Shown here: piece after piece, positions 2,573 to 64,000 of the stretch
How positions within the stretch are numbered: the first letter of the stretch is position 1
Layout of the letters: the number at the start of each line of letters is the position of its first letter
Source: an uncultured Planctomycetaceae bacterium
Lineage (GTDB): Bacteria > Planctomycetota > Planctomycetia > Planctomycetales > Planctomycetaceae
Length of the DNA: 64,000 nt
Direction: 5' to 3'
NCBI GenBank assembly: GCA_937916515.1
Contig: CALFSX010000064.1
Location: 1 to 64,000, forward strand
Notes under the pieces: model-generated
The model's database searches: none
Told to the model about the DNA's origin: nothing
The model's input: only the letters and a program-made list of their open reading frames with translations
Translations under genes and position numbers: made by a program

Positions 2573-3514
2573 CTATTTGCCCGGGATGTCATCCCACAAT
2601 TCCAGCACACGCACAGATGCTTTGTTGCCTTTTTCCGCAGCTATCTGAAACAGGTGCCGGGCCTTCGCGAGATCCTTCGGAACTCCATCACCTTTCAAAT
2701 ACAGGCACGCGTACCGGTGCATTGCCTCAGCATTTCCAGCTTCAACCGCAAGTGATAGATAGTGCGCGGCACTTGTATAGTTTCGTGAAACATAGAGGTC
2801 GCAAAGATAAGCCTCCCCCACCCATCGCTGAGCCTCGTCCAGCCCGCCATCTGCCGCTCTTTTCATGTATTCAAACGCACAGAATGCCGTTCCATCAGGT
2901 GGCGACTGCCCTCCCAGCAGCAACATACCTGCTTCAAACGCTGCCTCTGGGCGATTACGCCGAACAAAACAATCCAGGCAGTGGAATACCCATGCCAAAT
3001 CCACTGAGGACAAATTCCCCTGACGACAAAGCGAAGAGAGTCGAAGCATACCGTGAAATTCACCTAGTAATGCCGCACTTCGGTAACAAGAGAACGCTGC
3101 CTGAACATCGGCGATAACACCGTTACCATGCTCATAGCACATGCCTAAATACACAAATGATGTGGCGTCCCCCAATGAAACAGCAATCAGAAACTTTTCG
3201 ACGGCCGCCTCATATTTTGCATGATCATAATAATAACGAGCCAGGTTGTAGTATCCGCGTGGATGTCCGTGAGTAGCCGCCTTTTCAAACAACCGATTTG
3301 CCGCACCATATTGCTCGCATAACTGTGGATACTCTTCCAGTAGCACCCCCAATCGAACCATCGCGTTCGGTTCATTTGCAGCCACCAGAACGGAGTATCC
3401 CTCTGCGCACTGAAGCAAGCTGGCTTTTTCATGAATGCCGGACTCTGCGGCAATCGCGTCGCAATGTGTTTGTAAACTGTGGTCGATCAACTCACTTGCT
3501 TCTTCAAGCCCCAA
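2573..3514 (-). CDS. Sel1-repeat (TPR-like) protein, possible N-terminal nonsense codon
   Basis: The 313-residue product is built of Sel1-like repeats (for example YYNLARYYYDHAKYEAAVEK, YLGMCYEHGNGV-ADVQAAF, YACLYLKGDGVPKDLAKARH), alpha-helical solenoids that act as protein-protein scaffolds. The frame given begins at a TTG codon because a TGA interrupts the same frame at 3533-3535. Upstream of that TGA an ATG at 3598, preceded by a GAGGAA ribosome-binding site, opens 21 further codons (MPDRIESPIIASNPGWPVGF...). The gene may therefore originally have started at 3598 and now carry a nonsense mutation, or use a later start. No signal peptide is seen. It lies downstream of the sulfatase gene on the same strand. 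Binding partner unknown. Confidence 0.75.
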   Translation of the reverse strand: MGLEEASELIDHSLQTHCDAIAAESGIHEKASLLQCAEGYSVLVAANEPNAMVRLGVLLEEYPQLCEQYGAANRLFEKAATHGHPRGYYNLARYYYDHAKYEAAVEKFLIAVSLGDATSFVYLGMCYEHGNGVIADVQAAFSCYRSAALLGEFHGMLRLSSLCRQGNLSSVDLAWVFHCLDCFVRRNRPEAAFEAGMLLLGGQSPPDGTAFCAFEYMKRAADGGLDEAQRWVGEAYLCDLYVSRNYTSAAHYLSLAVEAGNAEAMHRYACLYLKGDGVPKDLAKARHLFQIAAEKGNKASVRVLELWDDIPGK

Positions 3515-54997: not shown

Positions 54998-55303
54998 CAA
55001 AATCATCTTTCCAAAGACTTCTACTGTTCGCATTTCAACCACAAGCTGCTTGCTGCCAGTTCTGTTAAAACAAGAATCGCAACGGCGTCGGGTAGCCGGA
55101 GTCGGCTTGAGCCTGCAAAGGAAACCCGGGAGTTTCGCTCCAACATCGCTACCAATTCCGCGAGGATCCATTTAAACACGACAACAGTAGAACGGTAATC
55201 TGAAAATTTATCGCACACTTTTGACGTCGCCGACAAATTATCCTTAGACTTCACGCGTCTATCACACAGCACAGAATCCAGGTTTGCAAGAGTAGAACAC
55301 GCA

Positions 55304-55687
55304 ATGAAGATTGAACATACCGCATTCAACGTCGAAGAACCGGTCCTGATGGCCAAATGGTACGTTGAACACCTTGGCCTGAAGATTAAACGCCGAACAG
55401 TCGACGCACCTTACGCTCACTTTCTGGCGGACGATGGAGACGCCGTGATGATGGAAATCTACGGCAACAAAAATGCACCACTGCCCGATTACCGTAATAT
55501 GAATCCCGCCGAACTTCACGTCGCCTTCACGTCCACCAATGTGGCAGCCGACGTAAAGCGACTTCACAACGCGGGAGCCACCATTGTTGCCGACGTACAT
55601 CAACTGGGCGATGATATCTTCGCCATGCTGCGAGACCCCTGGGGATTGCCGTTGCAACTGGTGACTCGCGGAACTCGCATGATCTGA
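55304..55687 (+). CDS. VOC-superfamily (glyoxalase-like) protein
   Basis: The 127-residue protein is a single vicinal-oxygen-chelate fold: KIEHTAFNVEEPVLMAKWYV, LGLKIKRRTVDAPYAHFLAD, MMEIYGNKNAPLPDYRNMNP, ELHVAFTSTNVAADVKRLHN and a C-terminal FAMLRDPWGLPLQLVTR. His5, the His in ELHVAF and Glu/Gln at the end of strand 8 are candidate metal ligands. The family includes glyoxalase I, dioxygenases and antibiotic-resistance binding proteins, and the substrate cannot be told. It is divergent from the PSD1 gene, with DUF2306 following 38 bp downstream. Confidence 0.85.
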   Translation: MKIEHTAFNVEEPVLMAKWYVEHLGLKIKRRTVDAPYAHFLADDGDAVMMEIYGNKNAPLPDYRNMNPAELHVAFTSTNVAADVKRLHNAGATIVADVHQLGDDIFAMLRDPWGLPLQLVTRGTRMI

Positions 55688-55725
55688 AAACATGAACGAA
55701 TGCCCGGCACAGAAATTACATTCAC

Positions 55726-56373
55726 ATGCGGATACAAAGGTCATCGCTGTTCAGAATTGTCCCGATAGCGCTGACTTGCCTGTTGATCTGTAAAACCGTT
55801 CTGAGTGTCTTCGCCAGTTATCCGAATTATCTTCCGCCAGATTTCAGTTCCGACTTTTTGATTGGCAGAGAACGCACATTCTTTGGAATCTACCAGTGGA
55901 ACTTCAACGTACACATTTTGTCAGGACCGTGTACGCTGATTTTCGGAATGCTGTTGCTAAGCCGGAAATTCCTGCATCGATTCCCGAAGTGGCATCGATA
56001 TCTTGGCCGAACACAGGTCCTGCTGATTGTCACCATGGTGGCACCGACCGGCCTTTGGATGGCACTTTACGCAGAATCCGGACCAATCGCCGGTATCGCG
56101 TTTGCCGGGCTGGCCATCAGCACAGCTTACTGCGCGGTGTGTGGCTGGCGAAGTGCCGTCAATCGACGCTTCGCCAAACACCAAATCTGGATGCAACGCT
56201 GCTTCGCTCTGCTATGTGCCGCGGTTGTTCAACGAGTGCTCGGCGGATTGGGAACCTTCGCCGAAGTCGAGGCTCAGTCATTCAACACATTCTCACCATG
56301 GCTCAGCTGGCTGCTGCCCGTTGCTGGCCTGGAGATTGCTCGTGCAGTCTGGGCGAAGAAAAGAATCAAATAG
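55726..56373 (+). CDS. DUF2306 membrane protein
   Basis: The 215-residue protein has about five hydrophobic segments and the DUF2306 features: NFNVHILSGPCTLIFGMLLL, KFLHRFPKWHRYLGRTQVLL and FAKHQIWMQRCFALLCAAVV with conserved histidines that resemble haem or metal ligands. Function is not established. Its 3' end is remarkable: bases 56280-56338 recur exactly at 60696-60754, where they belong to a remnant of a second DUF2306-like gene end. The C-terminal residues after the repeat (ARAVWAKKRIK) differ from the remnant's (VRRICTTTRIKK) but align with it. Confidence 0.85.
   Translation: MRIQRSSLFRIVPIALTCLLICKTVLSVFASYPNYLPPDFSSDFLIGRERTFFGIYQWNFNVHILSGPCTLIFGMLLLSRKFLHRFPKWHRYLGRTQVLLIVTMVAPTGLWMALYAESGPIAGIAFAGLAISTAYCAVCGWRSAVNRRFAKHQIWMQRCFALLCAAVVQRVLGGLGTFAEVEAQSFNTFSPWLSWLLPVAGLEIARAVWAKKRIK
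56280..56338 (+). repeat. 59-bp perfect direct repeat, left copy
   Basis: This segment in the 3' end of the DUF2306 gene is identical to 60696-60754. The two copies bracket about 4.4 kb containing only the dockerin giant gene. Confidence 0.95.
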
Positions 56374-56904
56374 CAAACCGCCAGAAGTAGCAACAGGCAG
56401 CATCACCAGCCGGATCAAAAAATGGCAGATTGCAACAGCCCGTCATTGAACTGCAGGCGAACGAATGACGGTGCCGTCGTTCGCAAAGTGAGCGACGCTG
56501 GAGAAGCCCACGCAATTTGCAATGCAAGAAAACCCAAAGAAGACTGATTCTTCGAAAATCCTCGCAAAACCAACTACAAATGTATATTGGATAGAATGTG
56601 ACTCATAGCCCACCGTGCCTCACTTGCGTTTCATTCTGAGTCAGCAAAATCGAGTCCAACAAAAGAACTGCGAACTCGGACTCGAACAGGATAGATCACC
56701 GCCTTGTGTCTTACCTCGTCCACCGCCCCCACCTAATTCGGTTTTGGGTGACGCCTTGATTGCAACTTTGTCCTCTGATGATCATATTCTGACCTTGGCG
56801 TAATATTTTGGTCCAGCCTCCTTCGTTTCATTCTTCTTCCGTCGTGGATAGGTGAACGAACGCTTCTAAATATCCATTGGTATCTAAAATTCGTAAGGTA
56901 AGGA
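56374..56904. other. 530-bp gap between DUF2306 and dockerin gene
   Basis: A stem-loop lies near the start (GCGAAC at 56457-56462 with GTTCGC at 56479-56484, and inner GACGG/CCGTC), a possible terminator for DUF2306. The rest is AT-richer than the neighbourhood. No protein-like frame was found. The region ends with an AAGGTAAGGA ribosome-binding site for the next gene. Confidence 0.45.
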
Positions 56905-59900
56905 ATGTCTGGGCTCATTCGACGTTATTTTCATGGTCTCCAAAATCAATTGCGGGGACAACAAAAACGTCGTCGAGGTCGGGCCAGCAATGCGTCTGCT
57001 TCTAATGATTCGTCGTCGTTTTTGGCCCGTCGCGCCGATGCTTTCGAAGACCGTGTCCTTCTTGCCGGCAATGCACCAAACCTGTTGCCGATTGCCCCGG
57101 TGAGTATATTTCAGCACGCTGAATCCCAAACCGTCGCGATTTCAGGGATTGACGCTGGTGGATCCGAATCGCAGCCATTGCGTGTGACTGCCTCAAGTGA
57201 CAACACAAGTGTTATCCCCCATCCGACAGTCGTTTACTCATCTCCAGCGAGCAGCGGGACGCTCGAATTCACGGCGCTTCCCGGAGCAAGTGGGGCGGTA
57301 ACGATCACTGTAACAGTTGAAGATGGTGGGCCAGACTTGAACTTCAACACAATTGATGACAACGAATTATTTACTCGCGAATTCGGGGTTACGGTAACTC
57401 CATTTAAGTCATTCGCAGTCAACAATTTGTTCGTAGACGCGCGTTCAAATCTATCACAGGCAGGTCGCTCGACGTGGCTAACCGACGGTCTGTTGCCGGT
57501 CATGATTGACCTCCCAACAGGTCAGGGGCGCTGGATTGAAATGTCCAACGTCAGCGGTTCACTGAAAGCGGGGCCCCAGTGGCCAACTCATGGTGCTGAC
57601 GGGGGTTCGAGTGGTCCAGGCAATACGAAGGGAACCAACATATTCTCGACTGATGGCATTTCGGGAATTCTGGCATCGCGGTTTCTGTTTTTATCGGGCG
57701 TCTTCCTTGCTGACACAACGTCAACTGCAGCCCCAAGCCGTTTGGATTACCGTAACATTGGAATGAACTTTCACAGCCAGTCTCCACTCCTGCAGCAGAC
57801 TTTCTTCATTGGGGATGGTCGGGACGCGAGCCAAGCGAGCCAGAGGTTCTTCATTCCAGACGGCGCAACGCGACTATTTTTAGGTTTTATGGATGCAGTT
57901 AAGTTCGGTTGGCCAACGGGACTTGCTCCAGGGGCGTATTCGGACAACACAGGCTTCCTGGCCGCGTCGCTGTCGATTAGCGTTCCAAATCGATTGCCCA
58001 CACTGAACCATATTGTTGACGTCAAACTGCCGATCGACGCCCCGGAGCAAACCATTGAACTGCACGGGATAACTGCGGGCGCCGGGGAATTGCAACCACT
58101 TCAGATAACCGTCGTGAGTGACAACACGCAATTAGTCGGACAACTGCTTTTGAACTACATTGCGCCACAATCGAGCGGAAACTTGGTTTTTAGGCCCGAG
58201 CCCGGCCACAGCGGTTCCGCAACTATTACGGTAAAAATTGAAGATGGCGGGCCAGATGGTGATTTGCTAACGCCCCTCGACAACGCTTTCTTCCAACGGA
58301 CATTTAATGTAACAGTTGGAAGTTTTCATTCATTCCCCGTAACAGACCTCACAGTTGATGCTCGCGCCGACCTTTCACACGCGTCTCGGGATACAACACC
58401 CGATCCAGAAAACCGCTTGCTTCCAGTGCTAGTAAACCTTCCAGTGGGCACTGGTCGTTGCCTCGTCGTAACTTCCGTAAATGGCGACGTCAAAGCTGGA
58501 CCGGAATGGCCAATCCACAATGCGGACGGCGGAATGTTCGGCCCCGCTGGCGAAATGGGAGCCAACATCTTTGCAGAGCGTGGAATTTCTGGCGTACTCG
58601 CACCACGATTCCTCTTTCTAGCTGGGACGTTTCTTGATGATGAAACACCAACGGTTTCACCGAGTCGATACGACTATCGCTACACTGGGACCGAATTTGC
58701 AAACCAAAGTCCAATTCCTCAACAGGTTTTCTATATTGGCGATGGACAGAATTCGGACGGCGCCCGTCCAATGATTAAAATCCCGGACAACGCCACACGC
58801 CTGTTTCTGGGCTTTATGGACGCCGATACTTTTGGTTGGCCGTCGGGGCTTTTGCCCGGCGCATACCACGACAACACCGGTCAGCTGTCGGTATCCCTGT
58901 CAATCATTGTGCCGAACGCGGCTCCAACCCTCGACAAACCTGCCGACTTAACGCTGACGAATGTCGAAAGCGAACACACTGTCGTCTTGAGTGGAATTTC
59001 CTCAGGGCTTGGCGAATCGCAGCATTTGCGAATCACGGCGGCCAGCAACAACACCGAACTCCTTGCTGATCCAGTTGTCGTGTACACATCTGGAGACACG
59101 TTTGGCCGCCTGATACTGATGCCTCGAACAGGATTCAGTGGCAGCACCTCGGTCGAGGTCCAGATTGAAGACAGTGGTCCTGATCAAAATTTCGACACCA
59201 CCGAAGACAACGGCACTTCGATTCAAACGTTCAAAGTTACTGTAACAAGTCAAAACGCCCCCCCAACTCTCAACACAATTGAAGACCTAAACTTCGATGA
59301 AGACGCAGAAGAAAGCCACATTGAACTCACCGGCATCACAGCGGGAGGTGGCGAGTCACAACATCTTGTAGTCACCGCTCTAAGCTCTAACAAACGCATC
59401 GTTGCAAATCCGTTAATAACATACTCGTCCCCCGACAGAACCGCACTATTATCAATACAGCCTCAGGCCGATCAAAGTGGCCCAGTGAGCATCACAGTCA
59501 CAGTCGAAGACGCCGGATTCGACCAAATTTTGGGGACCACTGACGACAACGCCACCTTCAGCCGCACATTTGAGATCGTGATAAATTCAGTCAACGATCC
59601 TCCGACGATGATGGCACTTTCGAATAGAACGCTGCCTACTGATTCCGGGGAGCAATCGATCCCGGTAACGAATCTCACAGCTGGAGGTGGAGAGTCTCAA
59701 CCGCTTCGATTAAACGCCATCAGCAGCAATCCAGATCTCATTGCCGAATTTGAGTTTGACTATACGTCCCCAAGCGACAGCGGCAGCTTGCGATTCACCC
59801 CAACAGCAGGACTATCTGGAACATCAATAATTACGGTCACGATTGAAGACGGAGGATTGGATGGTGACCTTGAAACGTCAAATGATAATGCTACGTTCGG

Positions 59901-60462
59901 TCATCAGTTTGAAGTCGCAGTGCATTCACCGATAGCCGGTAACGTTGATGGCGATATTGACTTCGATGCAAATGATTCGTTCCTCATTCAACTCGTCCAC
60001 CTTTCCGGAACGGACAGTCAGATTGATCAATCCAAAGGGGCAGCCAATGTGGCGGCATCGCAAATTAGACATCGCGTGGCTGATATTACTGACGTGGGAG
60101 ATGTGGATGGCGACGGAGACTTCGATGCCAACGATGCATTCTTGATTCACTTGGTCAAATTGTCTGGTACGAATCCCCAGATTGACCAATCGAAAGGTAG
60201 CAGTCCACTTACCGCTACCCTGATCCGCGCGAACGTCCATCGTCTCGGGCAACCCAAAATTGGACTTAACGCGCGACGTGTGTCAAAGACGTCTCAAGCA
60301 CTAATGCCATACCCGAAAATGTCCCCATGGGAAGGCCCATCCGATCAATGGAACTTTGACACCGGTCTAGGATTTATTACAGAAGAGTCCGATCATGACG
60401 AAGCCATACTGATTGCGTCTGTATTCGGCAAAAGCCATAGGTGGTGGCTGGACGCAATCTGA
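56905..60462 (+). CDS. Giant surface-type protein: Ig-like repeats, duplicated lectin-like modules, dockerin
   Basis: The 1185-residue protein begins with a basic, Ser-rich segment and AFEDRVLLAG, resembling the planctomycete LEPR-x-LL-type export N-terminus. About five similar Ig-like repeats follow, each with E..I.L.GI.AGGGESQ.L and ITVTVEDGG.D (about 52-166, 364-472, 672-785, 787-900, 900-1010). Two copies of a roughly 195-residue module at about 167-362 and 473-670 (TRLFLGFMDA..FGWP, L.PGAY.DNTG) resemble galactose-binding PA-IL-like domains. Residues about 1011-1105 form a type I dockerin-like pair (GNVDGDIDFDANDSFLIQLV, GDVDGDGDFDANDAFLIHLV) with Ca-binding loops. A further 80-residue tail follows. 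It is probably a secreted or surface adhesion or polymer-binding protein. It lies between the two copies of the 59-bp repeat. Confidence 0.82.
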   Translation: MSGLIRRYFHGLQNQLRGQQKRRRGRASNASASNDSSSFLARRADAFEDRVLLAGNAPNLLPIAPVSIFQHAESQTVAISGIDAGGSESQPLRVTASSDNTSVIPHPTVVYSSPASSGTLEFTALPGASGAVTITVTVEDGGPDLNFNTIDDNELFTREFGVTVTPFKSFAVNNLFVDARSNLSQAGRSTWLTDGLLPVMIDLPTGQGRWIEMSNVSGSLKAGPQWPTHGADGGSSGPGNTKGTNIFSTDGISGILASRFLFLSGVFLADTTSTAAPSRLDYRNIGMNFHSQSPLLQQTFFIGDGRDASQASQRFFIPDGATRLFLGFMDAVKFGWPTGLAPGAYSDNTGFLAASLSISVPNRLPTLNHIVDVKLPIDAPEQTIELHGITAGAGELQPLQITVVSDNTQLVGQLLLNYIAPQSSGNLVFRPEPGHSGSATITVKIEDGGPDGDLLTPLDNAFFQRTFNVTVGSFHSFPVTDLTVDARADLSHASRDTTPDPENRLLPVLVNLPVGTGRCLVVTSVNGDVKAGPEWPIHNADGGMFGPAGEMGANIFAERGISGVLAPRFLFLAGTFLDDETPTVSPSRYDYRYTGTEFANQSPIPQQVFYIGDGQNSDGARPMIKIPDNATRLFLGFMDADTFGWPSGLLPGAYHDNTGQLSVSLSIIVPNAAPTLDKPADLTLTNVESEHTVVLSGISSGLGESQHLRITAASNNTELLADPVVVYTSGDTFGRLILMPRTGFSGSTSVEVQIEDSGPDQNFDTTEDNGTSIQTFKVTVTSQNAPPTLNTIEDLNFDEDAEESHIELTGITAGGGESQHLVVTALSSNKRIVANPLITYSSPDRTALLSIQPQADQSGPVSITVTVEDAGFDQILGTTDDNATFSRTFEIVINSVNDPPTMMALSNRTLPTDSGEQSIPVTNLTAGGGESQPLRLNAISSNPDLIAEFEFDYTSPSDSGSLRFTPTAGLSGTSIITVTIEDGGLDGDLETSNDNATFGHQFEVAVHSPIAGNVDGDIDFDANDSFLIQLVHLSGTDSQIDQSKGAANVAASQIRHRVADITDVGDVDGDGDFDANDAFLIHLVKLSGTNPQIDQSKGSSPLTATLIRANVHRLGQPKIGLNARRVSKTSQALMPYPKMSPWEGPSDQWNFDTGLGFITEESDHDEAILIASVFGKSHRWWLDAI

Positions 60463-60695
60463 GAAAGAATCACGACACGAGACGTGGGCTATCCTTTCGA
60501 AGAACAGCAAACAGGATGTGCTGGAAGCCAAGGGGTTCCGGCAAATTGCGGAAATCAGCCAAGCGTCAGTCCGCCGGCATTTTTTTTTGGTGCCTGCCAT
60601 CGGCTCCTGAGAGTGATCCTGCCTGTTCGGAAATCCTACGTCACGTCCCCACACTGCGACGGACCACGAGCTATGTGGATAGCCCCCGTTTCATG
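60463..60695. other. Short non-coding stretch before the DUF2306 remnant
   Basis: A run of nine T (near 60580) and no recognised gene or hairpin. A 65-codon frame crossing the region is not similar to any family I know. Confidence 0.35.
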
Positions 60696-60754
60696 ATTCA
60701 ACACATTCTCACCATGGCTCAGCTGGCTGCTGCCCGTTGCTGGCCTGGAGATTG
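60696..60754 (+). repeat. 59-bp perfect direct repeat, right copy
   Basis: Identical to 56280-56338 in the DUF2306 gene; here it opens a gene-end remnant. Confidence 0.95.
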
Positions 60755-60792
60755 TTCGAAGAATCTGCACAACCACCAGAATTAAGAAGTAA
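60697..60792 (+). pseudogene. Remnant of a DUF2306 gene 3' end
   Basis: The frame reads FNTFSPWLSWLLPVAGLEIV then RRICTTTRIKK and a TAA stop at 60790-60792. It matches the last 31 residues of the intact DUF2306 protein: the first 59 bp are identical, and the rest is diverged but still alignable and of similar length. A TGA stop (60694-60696) lies directly before it, so nothing is translated from upstream. It is either a leftover of a tandem duplicate or the displaced original 3' end after an insertion. Confidence 0.8.
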
Positions 60793-60826
60793 ACCGCAAC
60801 ACAACAATGAATCGGAGTTCCGCGAC

Positions 60827-62542
60827 ATGACTCACTTGTTTCCCATTTCCTTGCTCACGATTTTCTGCTGCGTGTTGCTCGGCTGCTCTGACAGCACATC
60901 GACACTTCCAGATACGAATCAGGCCGTTTCCCCAAGTGTTCCAGCGGCCGAGGATTCTCGATCATCAATTGCTGCACCGGAAGCAAATACCAACCTTCAA
61001 GCAGATCCGTCGCCTACTCTACTGAATGCCCTGGAACAGATTTCAAAATCATCGCCACTTCCCTCATTGGCTGACGAAAACCCCGAGAATCCACTTAACA
61101 CAATCCTTGCAGATTCCAGCCTTGGCGAGATTGAGGATTCGACAGTCGATCCCAGTCAACGAATGGCTCTGAGTTTTGCCGCGTTGCGGGGCCTGGACAA
61201 GGCAATCGGTTCATACAGAAAAGCGCTGAGTTCCGAGCAACCGGTGGGAATGGAATTGGCCAGCCTGCTGAGACAACGTTGCCTGCTGGCCGCAGCGGCG
61301 GGGCGAATGGCGAAAGCAGACGGCCAACTGCCAACCGGGTTCGTCACTAATGAAGACACCGATGAACGAGAGATAGAAACAGAACGTCTGGCGTGGCTGT
61401 TGACGCTGTCGTGGAATGAGATCGCAAGGACTTTGCAGGCACCAAACTGGAGTAAGCTGAGTGCGGCAGAACAATCTCACGTGCTGCAAACTCTACAGAA
61501 CGCAACAATCGACCTTTCGCCGGTAACCTATGAAGCGTATCGCAGCAGCATTAAGACCAGCCTGCCGAAATCCGCTGATAGCGGTGACCTGAACGAACAA
61601 CTTTCGAAAGCCGAGATAGCACTTTCCACTGCCGATTTTGCTCCGCATTTGTTGGGCGCCTGTCGCAGCCTTTTTGACCTGACTTCCGTGCCAGTGCCGG
61701 AATTTCCCGAATTGGGCGAATACGACTATAGCGTCGAAGATGAAACAGTGCTGGTTTGGGAATTCGCCCTGACAAACGACGCCTCAAAGCAAACGCCTGG
61801 TTGCAAAATGGAATTCCGACTGCTGCTGCCTGCTGGCGATCATCAGCCGAAAAGCCTGCCATGCATCCTGATGGCCCCTGCGGGAACGGGGCTGGAGTCA
61901 GGCCTGGATCTGGACCTTGATTCCGATGAAGTTTATCTTGCCGCAGTCATACCGTTCGTTAAAGCTGGCTATGCCGTCCTTCAGTATTCGCTGGACGGCG
62001 AAGAAGCTGAATCCAAAGGATTCGATCTTGCCGCATCAAGACGTGCCTACCTTCAATTCCGATCAGCGTTTGGTGGAGTAGTCAATGGTCGCAACGCCGC
62101 TGAATTCGCCAGAACGCAAGTTCCCGCAATCAACCCCGATGCACTTTATGCAGCCGGACACAGTTCGGCAGGAACGGTCGCACTTCTGGTGGCAGCTCAC
62201 GACATTCCCATCAAAGGCGTGATGTCCTTCGCAGGCGTTTCGGACGTCGCCAAAGAAAACTATTCCCTCACAGGCAACGATGCTTCGTTCAAACCGGGAA
62301 TCCATTCATTTCGAGTGAAGTCGTCGCCCATCACCCATGCGGACCAGGTGAACATACCAGTATTCCTGTATCACGGACGACAGGATGACACGGTGAATTA
62401 TGCTCAATCACAAACCTTCGAAGGTGAACTCAAGGGTGCCGGCAAGCAGGTAACTCTGGTTTCCGTGGACAGCGCCGATCACTACGACGCCATGATTGAA
62501 GACGGCATCCCGCAAGCCATTGAATGGCTAAATTCGCTTTGA
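60827..62542 (+). CDS. Lipoprotein alpha/beta hydrolase
   Basis: The ATG at 60827 follows a GGAG site and opens a lipoprotein signal (lipobox VLLGCS), so the longer frame from 60737, which runs through the DUF2306 remnant, is rejected. The product is 571 residues. An N-terminal Ser/Pro-rich spacer and a helical part of about 250 residues precede an alpha/beta-hydrolase domain of the dienelactone hydrolase/prolyl oligopeptidase type. It contains PAGTGLESGLDLDLDSDE, Ser446 in AAGHSSAGTVALL, the Asp in HGRQDDTVNYAQS and the His in SADHYDAM, a complete triad. Substrate unknown; an exported esterase or peptidase is likely. Confidence 0.82.
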   Translation: MTHLFPISLLTIFCCVLLGCSDSTSTLPDTNQAVSPSVPAAEDSRSSIAAPEANTNLQADPSPTLLNALEQISKSSPLPSLADENPENPLNTILADSSLGEIEDSTVDPSQRMALSFAALRGLDKAIGSYRKALSSEQPVGMELASLLRQRCLLAAAAGRMAKADGQLPTGFVTNEDTDEREIETERLAWLLTLSWNEIARTLQAPNWSKLSAAEQSHVLQTLQNATIDLSPVTYEAYRSSIKTSLPKSADSGDLNEQLSKAEIALSTADFAPHLLGACRSLFDLTSVPVPEFPELGEYDYSVEDETVLVWEFALTNDASKQTPGCKMEFRLLLPAGDHQPKSLPCILMAPAGTGLESGLDLDLDSDEVYLAAVIPFVKAGYAVLQYSLDGEEAESKGFDLAASRRAYLQFRSAFGGVVNGRNAAEFARTQVPAINPDALYAAGHSSAGTVALLVAAHDIPIKGVMSFAGVSDVAKENYSLTGNDASFKPGIHSFRVKSSPITHADQVNIPVFLYHGRQDDTVNYAQSQTFEGELKGAGKQVTLVSVDSADHYDAMIEDGIPQAIEWLNSL

Positions 62543-62734
62543 CACACCCGCAGGCTTGATATGGAAACTTCCCTGTCGTTGCATGTAGCCGGAAAGCTTG
62601 CAAGCAAAATCAACCGAGGGCAAATCACCCGGGCGTGCAGTAAAGCCACGAGGCCGGTAGATAGCCCATTTTAATTCGGCAAGTTTCCACGCCCAATTCC
62701 CCCTAATCGGCGTATCGGGACGATGTTCCCAAAT

Positions 62735-64000
62735 CTATTTCAGAGCGGCTTCGCCAAATTTCTGTTTCAGTCGTTCCATGCCATTTTCTGTAATCTGGGT
62801 ACGAAAGACAGTGAGTCTCGTCAAAGGCAAGAGGCACAGGTCTTCGATGGATTGGTCGGTGATCGGTGTATCATCTAATTTAAGATGCCGTAGCGACTCC
62901 ATTTTGGTAAGCTGGCTAATGCCTTTGTCGTTAATGCGCGTGCCGCTTAGGTCCAGAAATTCCAGCGAGGCAAACGTGGCGACTTCAGTCAGTCCTTGAT
63001 CAGTCACCATTGTGCCAGCCAGTGACAAGACACTCAGATTCCGGAACACCTGCAACTCGCGTAGACCATCGTCAGTGATGGCGGTGTCGTGCAAATATAG
63101 GCTGGTCAAGCCTTCCAGCTGTCGCAGATATTGCAGGCCAGAGTTCGTTATTGAATCACCACTCAATTCCAGAAAGTTTAGTTTTTCCAATCGCCCAATC
63201 GACTTCATGCTATGGTCGGTTACCTGGCAGTTCATTACGGTAAGATGAGTCAGATTGCTCAAGACGCCAAAATATTCCAGTCCGTCATCGGTAATATGGC
63301 TGGCCCCTGCAACATACGTAAAACGCGAATCGGCCCTGGCTTTTTTTGTTGGGCAGTTGCCGAAGAGGTCAATCGCCGTGAGTTGTGGATGGCTGCGAAG
63401 GCTTTTCAGCCCATCGTTGGTGACGCCACATTTATCGAAGCCAATGCGAGTGACGCTTTGAGCATGTTTTCGAGTTGCCGCCAGCAAGGCGTCGATCGCC
63501 AACGGCCCCGTAAACGACAGGATTTCCAGGTTTCGGACTGCCTTGAACGCAGGAAGGTGAACCCCGGGAGACAGTTCCACACCCAATTCAGGATTTGCTT
63601 CCTGAAGTGTGATTATCAAATCTATGGTGACAAGAGGGCAATCATTCAGAGCCAAAGAGCGAAGTCCCGACAGTTGTGTTAACGTCTCCGCAGTGACGAG
63701 TTTGCAGCTATGAAGTTTAAGAGAGCGAAGGCTTGGTAATTGAGCTAATAATGCAAGCCCTTCATCGGTGACCAACGTGTCAACTAACCACAATTCGCTG
63801 ATTTGCCCGAGACCAACAAGCTTTCCAAGGGCGGCGTCCGTCACTTTCGCTCCTCGAAGCCTTAGCTTAGACAGTCCGGGAAACGCATGCAGCTGGTCAA
63901 GATCCTCAACCGAATGCGGATCCCACATCACGCTTTCGACGTCGCCGGAGTCGGCATACCAAGCGGGCATCAATCCAGAACCACCAAGATATCTGGTTAC
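62735..64000 (-). CDS. Leucine-rich-repeat protein (N-terminus beyond right edge)
   Basis: The minus-strand frame is open to the right edge (VTRYLGGSGLMPAWYADSGD), so the true start is outside the window. The visible 421 residues are about 14 leucine-rich repeats of the cysteine-containing/RNI type (LRLRGAKVTDAALGKLVGLG, LWLVDTLVTDEGLALLAQLP, LYLHDTAITDDGLRELQVFR, LDLSGTRINDKGISQLTKM). These form a curved binding surface. Similar T-D-x-G-L repeats are common in planctomycetes, usually in secreted or cytosolic proteins of unknown partner. It converges on the hydrolase gene across a 192-bp gap that shows no clear terminator. Confidence 0.88.
   Translation of the reverse strand, partial: VTRYLGGSGLMPAWYADSGDVESVMWDPHSVEDLDQLHAFPGLSKLRLRGAKVTDAALGKLVGLGQISELWLVDTLVTDEGLALLAQLPSLRSLKLHSCKLVTAETLTQLSGLRSLALNDCPLVTIDLIITLQEANPELGVELSPGVHLPAFKAVRNLEILSFTGPLAIDALLAATRKHAQSVTRIGFDKCGVTNDGLKSLRSHPQLTAIDLFGNCPTKKARADSRFTYVAGASHITDDGLEYFGVLSNLTHLTVMNCQVTDHSMKSIGRLEKLNFLELSGDSITNSGLQYLRQLEGLTSLYLHDTAITDDGLRELQVFRNLSVLSLAGTMVTDQGLTEVATFASLEFLDLSGTRINDKGISQLTKMESLRHLKLDDTPITDQSIEDLCLLPLTRLTVFRTQITENGMERLKQKFGEAALK

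Follow-up and report, generated by a model that had tools for sequence, protein, structure and literature searches.

The window analyzed here comprises bases 1-64000 of a 127,979-base contig (G000:C64) in the draft genome of an uncultured Planctomycetaceae bacterium, and contains a perfect 59-bp direct repeat that brackets a 4.4-kb segment at the 3′ end of a DUF2306 membrane-protein gene. Direct repeats of the end of this target gene were found at both segment borders, and the explanation we favor, at a probability of roughly 0.45, is that the segment was inserted by recombination within the 59 bp. We prefer this reading for two reasons: a single event would account for the repeat, both gene tails, the wholeness of the gene and its operon-like spacing, and the genome yielded no second full-length copy of DUF2306. 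Such a unit would probably have brought a replacement gene end with it, as some integrated phages do. The source genome (G000) is an 8.33-Mb draft in 343 contigs, and coordinates are positions of the 64-kb window unless another contig is named. The features that carry the argument are as follows.

55726-56373, forward strand: intact DUF2306 membrane-protein gene, 215 residues, ending ARAVWAKKRIK (open reading frame, ORF; PF10067, E 2.4e-21)
56280-56338, forward strand: left 59-bp copy, lying within the 3′ end of DUF2306 (exact-repeat scan)
56339-56382, forward strand: left tail, the present gene end with its stop at 56371-56373 and 9 bases beyond, 27/44 identical to the right tail
56905-60462, forward strand: gene for a surface-type protein of 1185 residues with immunoglobulin (Ig)/cadherin-like repeats, the only long gene of the segment (ORF; Pfam)
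60484-60688, forward strand: one copy of a dispersed repeat of ~205 bp that carries terminal inverted repeats (here GGGCTATCC/GGATAGCCC), between the surface-protein gene and the right 59-bp copy
60696-60754, forward strand: right 59-bp copy; it begins 10 bases past the terminal inverted repeat of the dispersed repeat, which ends at 60685
60755-60792, forward strand: right tail, a diverged DUF2306 gene end (VRRICTTTRIKK, stop 60790-60792) without the 5′ part of the gene (alignment, reading frame)

The initial annotation had described the two 59-bp copies as identical, the left one as part of an intact DUF2306 gene and the right one as the start of a gene-end remnant with similar but different last residues, and all of this is confirmed. 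The copies agree at 59 of 59 bases, no further base matches on either side, and they form the only exact direct-repeat pair of at least 18 bp in the window; a simple estimate from base composition gives about 3.5e-26 chance pairs like the 59-bp one for the whole 128-kb contig. Among 40 other stretches (550,754 bases), exact pairs of at least 30 bases with copies more than 500 bases apart amounted to one 32-bp pair and one repeat array in a single stretch. Pairs of at least 24 bases on previously scanned stretches were mostly dispersed or tandem repeats, the longest (83 bp) belonging to neighboring copies of the ~205-bp repeat on contig C213. The initial annotation had also suggested a search of the genome for other copies of the 59-bp segment next to long dockerin genes, and a BLAST search of the draft with the left copy and its tail returned just two places, both at this locus. 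A 24-bp imperfect palindrome with a TTCGAA center (60746-60769) spans the end of the exact repeat in the right copy, with none listed at the matching point of the left copy; its position there may be chance.

Beyond the 59 bp the two copies agree, without gaps, at 27/44 positions (binomial probability near 2e-6), and the best other matches to the 44-base tail anywhere on the contig reach 24 positions on the forward and 25 on the reverse strand. The last matched base lies 8 bases beyond the left stop and 5 beyond the right one. The right copy keeps the DUF2306 frame into VRRICTTTRIKK and terminates one codon later than the left. The in-register agreement of the tails marks the right copy as a genuine gene end that has diverged and carries a stop of its own. 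The alignment collapses at once upstream of 60696, giving the stump an abrupt left edge. All 17 mismatches in the 103 aligned positions fall in the last 44, which has a chance of 6e-8 if divergence were uniform, so that the 59 bp would have been recently exchanged or kept identical. When base 56338 is joined to 60755, an intact 216-codon DUF2306 ORF results. The target ORF is whole by way of what would be a replacement tail, and the other tail stands in frame, with a stop, at the far border. The joined ORF would be flanked by two further genes.

55304-55687, forward strand: VOC/glyoxalase-family gene, 127 residues, 38 bp upstream of DUF2306 (ORF; PF00903, E 5.2e-11)
60827-62542, forward strand: lipoprotein-type alpha/beta hydrolase gene, 571 residues from this start, 34 bp past the stop of the stump (ORF, Pfam)

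With gaps of 38 bp on one side and 34 bp on the other, the joined row looks operon-like, and these spacings are directly seen, as are the repeat, the homologous second tail and the intact joined ORF. The proposed mechanism begins with a 4416-bp unit in which a single 59-bp copy and the tail of a DUF2306 gene would have been combined with the surface-protein gene and the dispersed repeat. This unit would have joined the DUF2306 3′ end by recombination inside the identical stretch, its in-frame tail keeping the host gene whole, and the former tail would have been pushed 4.4 kb downstream to become the stump ahead of the lipoprotein gene. We infer the insertion itself, the identity of the right-hand tail as the old one, and the route, for which we consider either a trans-acting recombinase or a single RecA-type crossover involving a circular intermediate.

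The same arrangement could descend from a tandem pair of DUF2306 genes, of which the first preceded the surface-protein gene and the second the lipoprotein gene. Gene conversion would have made their ends identical as far as 60754, and a later deletion ending near the dispersed repeat would have removed the 5′ part of the second gene, with no mobile unit involved. The initial annotation had likewise named tandem duplication with deletion and gene conversion as an alternative. We consider this history less likely than insertion. The exact stretch does start with the stump and end inside homologous sequence, as would a conversion tract cut by a deletion, but two events are needed, and DUF2306 matches in the source genome are confined to the intact gene and the stump, with no second full paralogue found.

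The content of the segment bears on the type of unit that insertion would require. The surface-type protein has Pfam matches to Big_9 and Cadherin_5 and a tandem-95-repeat match below its cut-off, and proteins similar to its C-terminal region (45-65% identity) are encoded on 4 other contigs of the same genome. Two DGDxDFDANDxFLI-like motifs lie in its C-terminal 180 residues. The initial annotation had called this protein a dockerin giant, and neither word is sustained: no dockerin family was matched in these 180 residues at E up to 5 (search filters drop most weak matches), the label going back to motif resemblance only, and the protein measures 1185 residues. The statement that the segment holds a single gene and no integrase does stand, with one long gene and no match to a recombinase family in it or in six small ORFs in or across the non-coding parts. 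These six ORFs gave no Pfam match at E up to 1, and Pfam revealed no remnants of genes from integrative and conjugative elements (ICEs) or integrative and mobilizable elements (IMEs) in the segment. No other copy of the left part of the segment was found in the draft genome. Foreign composition was considered and not shown: the composition is ordinary, with a deviation equalled by 10% of 315 windows and a guanine-plus-cytosine content at the 14th percentile. Since no recombinase was found in the segment, the unit, if the event was site-specific, would have been a passive one, possibly a decayed one.

On its right side the segment ends in the ~205-bp dispersed intergenic repeat, whose terminal inverted repeats are ~10 bp long. 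The window copy carries the GGGCTATCC/GGATAGCCC pair in place of the GGGCCATCC found on the left in most copies and the GGATGGCCC found on the right in several. The comparison collection includes 8 genomes of the genus, the source genome and 7 congeners. A model from 11 copies yielded 23 rows, equal to 21 distinct places in the source genome, some of them partial, and none in the 7 congeners (150 of 1,573-2,769 first-look candidates scored per genome). That the right border is a repeat not seen in congeners argues for assembly of the segment in this lineage and suggests a local origin. Further along the contig there are three more copies, at 64593, 68631 and 73562, all oriented like the window copy; on this contig the copies sit between ORFs of both strands. 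On contig C213 (1422-3350) three copies, one of them weak, follow each other head to tail, separated by gaps of 12 bp. A virus collection contained no match to a 28-mer of the repeat. Just past the window, at G000:C64:65074-65208 on the reverse strand and near a copy of the repeat, lies a remnant that resembles the beginning of a DDE_Tnp_1_4 (IS1380-type) transposase but scores under the curated cut-off. Many fetched contigs also carry a second dispersed intergenic family (CGTAGCGACAACGGAGCGGCTCGGCGATT...), including positions 3505 and 9768 of stretch L041, positions 37415 and 83158 of G000:C64, and many others.

The position of the right copy, beginning 10 bases past the terminal inverted repeat, is also what would be expected had replication slipped or switched template at the dispersed repeat: the nascent strand would have departed near the repeat end, picked up 59 bp from the DUF2306 end at a distance of 4.4 kb and come back. 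This is improbable in our view. The window copy as RNA folds better than shuffles (z -2.38; 4/200 shuffles as good), which would favor such an event, but as single-stranded DNA it folds no better than shuffles (z -0.53), and the sequence past the right copy is a homologous gene end (27/44), which a slip would not make. A structured RNA was separately rejected as an identity for the repeat. Rfam gave no match in 55200-64000 of the window, even at E up to 1, nor did any of 10 other loci reach the gathering score, and the consensus structure folded from 11 copies was weak (-8.45 kcal/mol, with a covariation term of +0.53).

Isolated gene ends are not restricted to this locus. We surveyed 701 ORFs of at least 120 residues from 69 stretches (1,036,601 bases, window included, some overlapping), and same-stretch matches confined to the C-terminus were found for three: DUF2306, an aldehyde-dehydrogenase-like gene on C32 and an ORF that belongs to a dispersed repeat family. 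On C32 (stretch L115, 5070-5511), the last ~70 bp of the gene and a palindromic GTAGGGCCGGTTCC repeat are present three times in tandem with a period of 149 bp, indicating that gene ends by palindromes do get copied in this genome, a point in favor of the slip. Matches between stretches mostly involved the family of this last ORF or long paralogous ORFs; they also included a pair on C258 and C295, discussed below, and an isolated 81-bp end, 81% identical, of a relative of the window's lipoprotein gene on C160 (L041, 11321-11401). The rest of the gene for this C160 end was not found by the searches made, and such a lone end lends some weight to truncation of an ancestral DUF2306 pair. Since lone gene ends arise here without sign of an integrative element, the alternatives to insertion stay alive.

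The genome has 15 tyrosine-recombinase matches elsewhere, and an enzyme acting in trans is therefore possible. No attachment sequence shared with the genome's integrases was detected: compared with the fetched stretches outside the contig of the window, the 103-bp gene end had just two matches, of 14 and 18 bases (E 0.26). In 16 stretches with or near integrase matches, a search for repeats resembling attachment (att) sites returned only pairs of 19-24 bases spaced by over 800 bases; several of these stem from dispersed repeats, and many of the contigs are short. Two small-gene ends, at 10827-10959 of L259 (G000:C258) and 136-268 of L256 (G000:C295), are 88% identical, and each adjoins a tyrosine-recombinase gene. 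Small ORFs of this type may accompany planctomycete integrases. At first sight the pair resembled a second insertion case; we set it aside, as both copies adjoin recombinase genes and the other border is seen on neither contig. A bolder extension of the insertion reading, which we regard as a long shot, is that units of a gene plus the ~205-bp repeat move as recombinase-less cassettes served in trans, dock at coding gene ends with a spare tail and swap the C-terminus of the target with each move.

The comparison collection holds one genome per species, with no close strain of the source species among the relatives. DUF2306 matches occur in 19 of 39 genomes, the source genome included, and 17 stretches were fetched from 16 of the 18 DUF2306-bearing relatives. 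The gene-end test covered 15 gene ends in 14 stretches, reaching 1.0 to 18.9 kb beyond the gene and at least 4.4 kb in 12/15; absent from it are G012 and G031 (not fetched), G001 and G007 (gene cut by the contig end) and G015 (no sequence past the gene). A stump of the window's kind was found at none of the 15 gene ends, with the window as control scoring positive. A VOC match beside DUF2306 was likewise absent from all 17 relative stretches as far as they reach, the control again being positive. The match in G009 is its second DUF2306 gene, and we regarded as chance an 18-residue match in one stretch (E 0.007) and several 20-37-base DNA matches in one stretch (E 6e-4 to 0.008). Around lipoprotein homologues, neither DUF2306 nor VOC was seen at any of 29 loci with flanks of up to 1.5 kb (of 48 rows outside the source genome). 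The DUF2306 3′ end as DNA, searched in 170 family genomes including the source, matched in 7 of the 169 others, always over ~20-35 bases (4 candidates scored per genome). Two DUF2306 matches do occur in some relatives: in G009 they lie on opposite strands within 7 kb, and in G005 on two contigs, one of them with internal stops. This is in keeping with an original gene pair; however, no relative examined has a tandem pair in the order of the window. The initial annotation had suggested that two tandem genes around the surface-protein gene in relatives would favor duplication, and none was found in this collection without close strains.

Several of these results weigh against insertion. The segment has no integrase of its own that our searches could match, and no link of any recombinase of the genome to the 59-bp site was found. 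Ordinary composition, a right-end repeat seen in the source genome and in none of 7 congeners, and relatives of the protein's C-terminus elsewhere in the genome point to local DNA, which also agrees with a decayed gene pair. The whole joined ORF and the 34-bp gap are equally expected from such a pair. The initial annotation had further looked to strains with an empty site as support; none was found, among relatives of which no examined one has the locus and none is a close strain. What is retained of the insertion first proposed is its geometry, with the in-frame tail and the joined ORF, whereas a foreign integrative element is not shown, given that no recombinase family was matched, that the composition is ordinary and that the right-end repeat was found in the source genome and not in 7 congeners.

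Ambiguity in the assembly should also be taken into account. The repeat could join pieces that are separate in nature, either flanks joined in the chromosome plus a 4.4-kb circle, or mixed strain variants, and the fragmentation of the draft into 343 contigs leaves room for this. With an assembler word of <60 bp, the sequence alone would not fix the pairing of the four arms. We nevertheless consider this very improbable, as no repeated sequence that would cause a false join was found across the 60695/60696 junction, and as the unit would still need a gene tail, so that a recombining unit would be implied even so.

If insertion is correct, the locus would be a planctomycete case of gene-end-restoring integration with a surface-protein as cargo and no recombinase found in it, and the joined site and the 4.4-kb circle become easy to look for. 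If instead a truncated gene pair is the origin, the locus cautions against taking direct repeats at gene ends for the attachment sites that they can mimic.

A search of one open-access library, in the portions available, returned nothing on this locus. A diversity-generating retroelement was rejected, since the 17 tail mismatches are not adenine-specific (A at 4 on the left and 7 on the right). An integron gene cassette was considered because the repeat follows the gene; here the consensus RNA structure of the repeat is weak and its copies on the window's contig lie between ORFs of both strands. As excerpted, one review (PMC5704250) gives repeats of 8-60 bp for tyrosine recombinases and names gene 3′ ends as targets, and the window resembles IMEs in both its repeat length and its target. 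It differs in that most IMEs described there encode a site-specific recombinase and in that DUF2306 is unnamed as a target in the portion consulted, to which it would be an addition if insertion is true. Cis-mobilizable elements (CIMEs) are described in the same portion as having lost integration and transfer genes but retained attL and attR. The segment is similar to them in lying between putative att-like direct repeats with no recombination or transfer genes found, and differs in showing no sign of ICE or IME descent. As background only, assembly of dispersed ICE parts by several integrases has been described (PMC5882170, in part).

The closest parallel is prophage e14 in icd of Escherichia coli K-12, for which we aligned icd and icdC in the same way as the window tails. 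Differences are apparent: e14 is 15 kb with intE and xisE, whereas the window segment is 4.4 kb with one long gene and no recombinase found. The e14 repeat, given as 165 bp with 12 exchanges in the available part of PMC11148124, has its changes scattered over the 165 bp with a longest exact run of 29, in contrast to 59/59 followed by 27/44 in the window, a pattern that also counts against insertion. The likenesses concern the architecture. In e14, a case also described in PMC6379469 (seen in part), the insertion lies in the coding 3′ end, an in-frame replacement tail is supplied and the old tail persists as a stump at the far end; the stump has the same abrupt left edge, and homology drops just past the stop, with patches of similarity further on in e14. 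On sequence and by analogy with e14, the edge, frame, stops and joined ORF of the window fit a gene-end insertion with a replacement tail, and the locus is real and of an already known kind.

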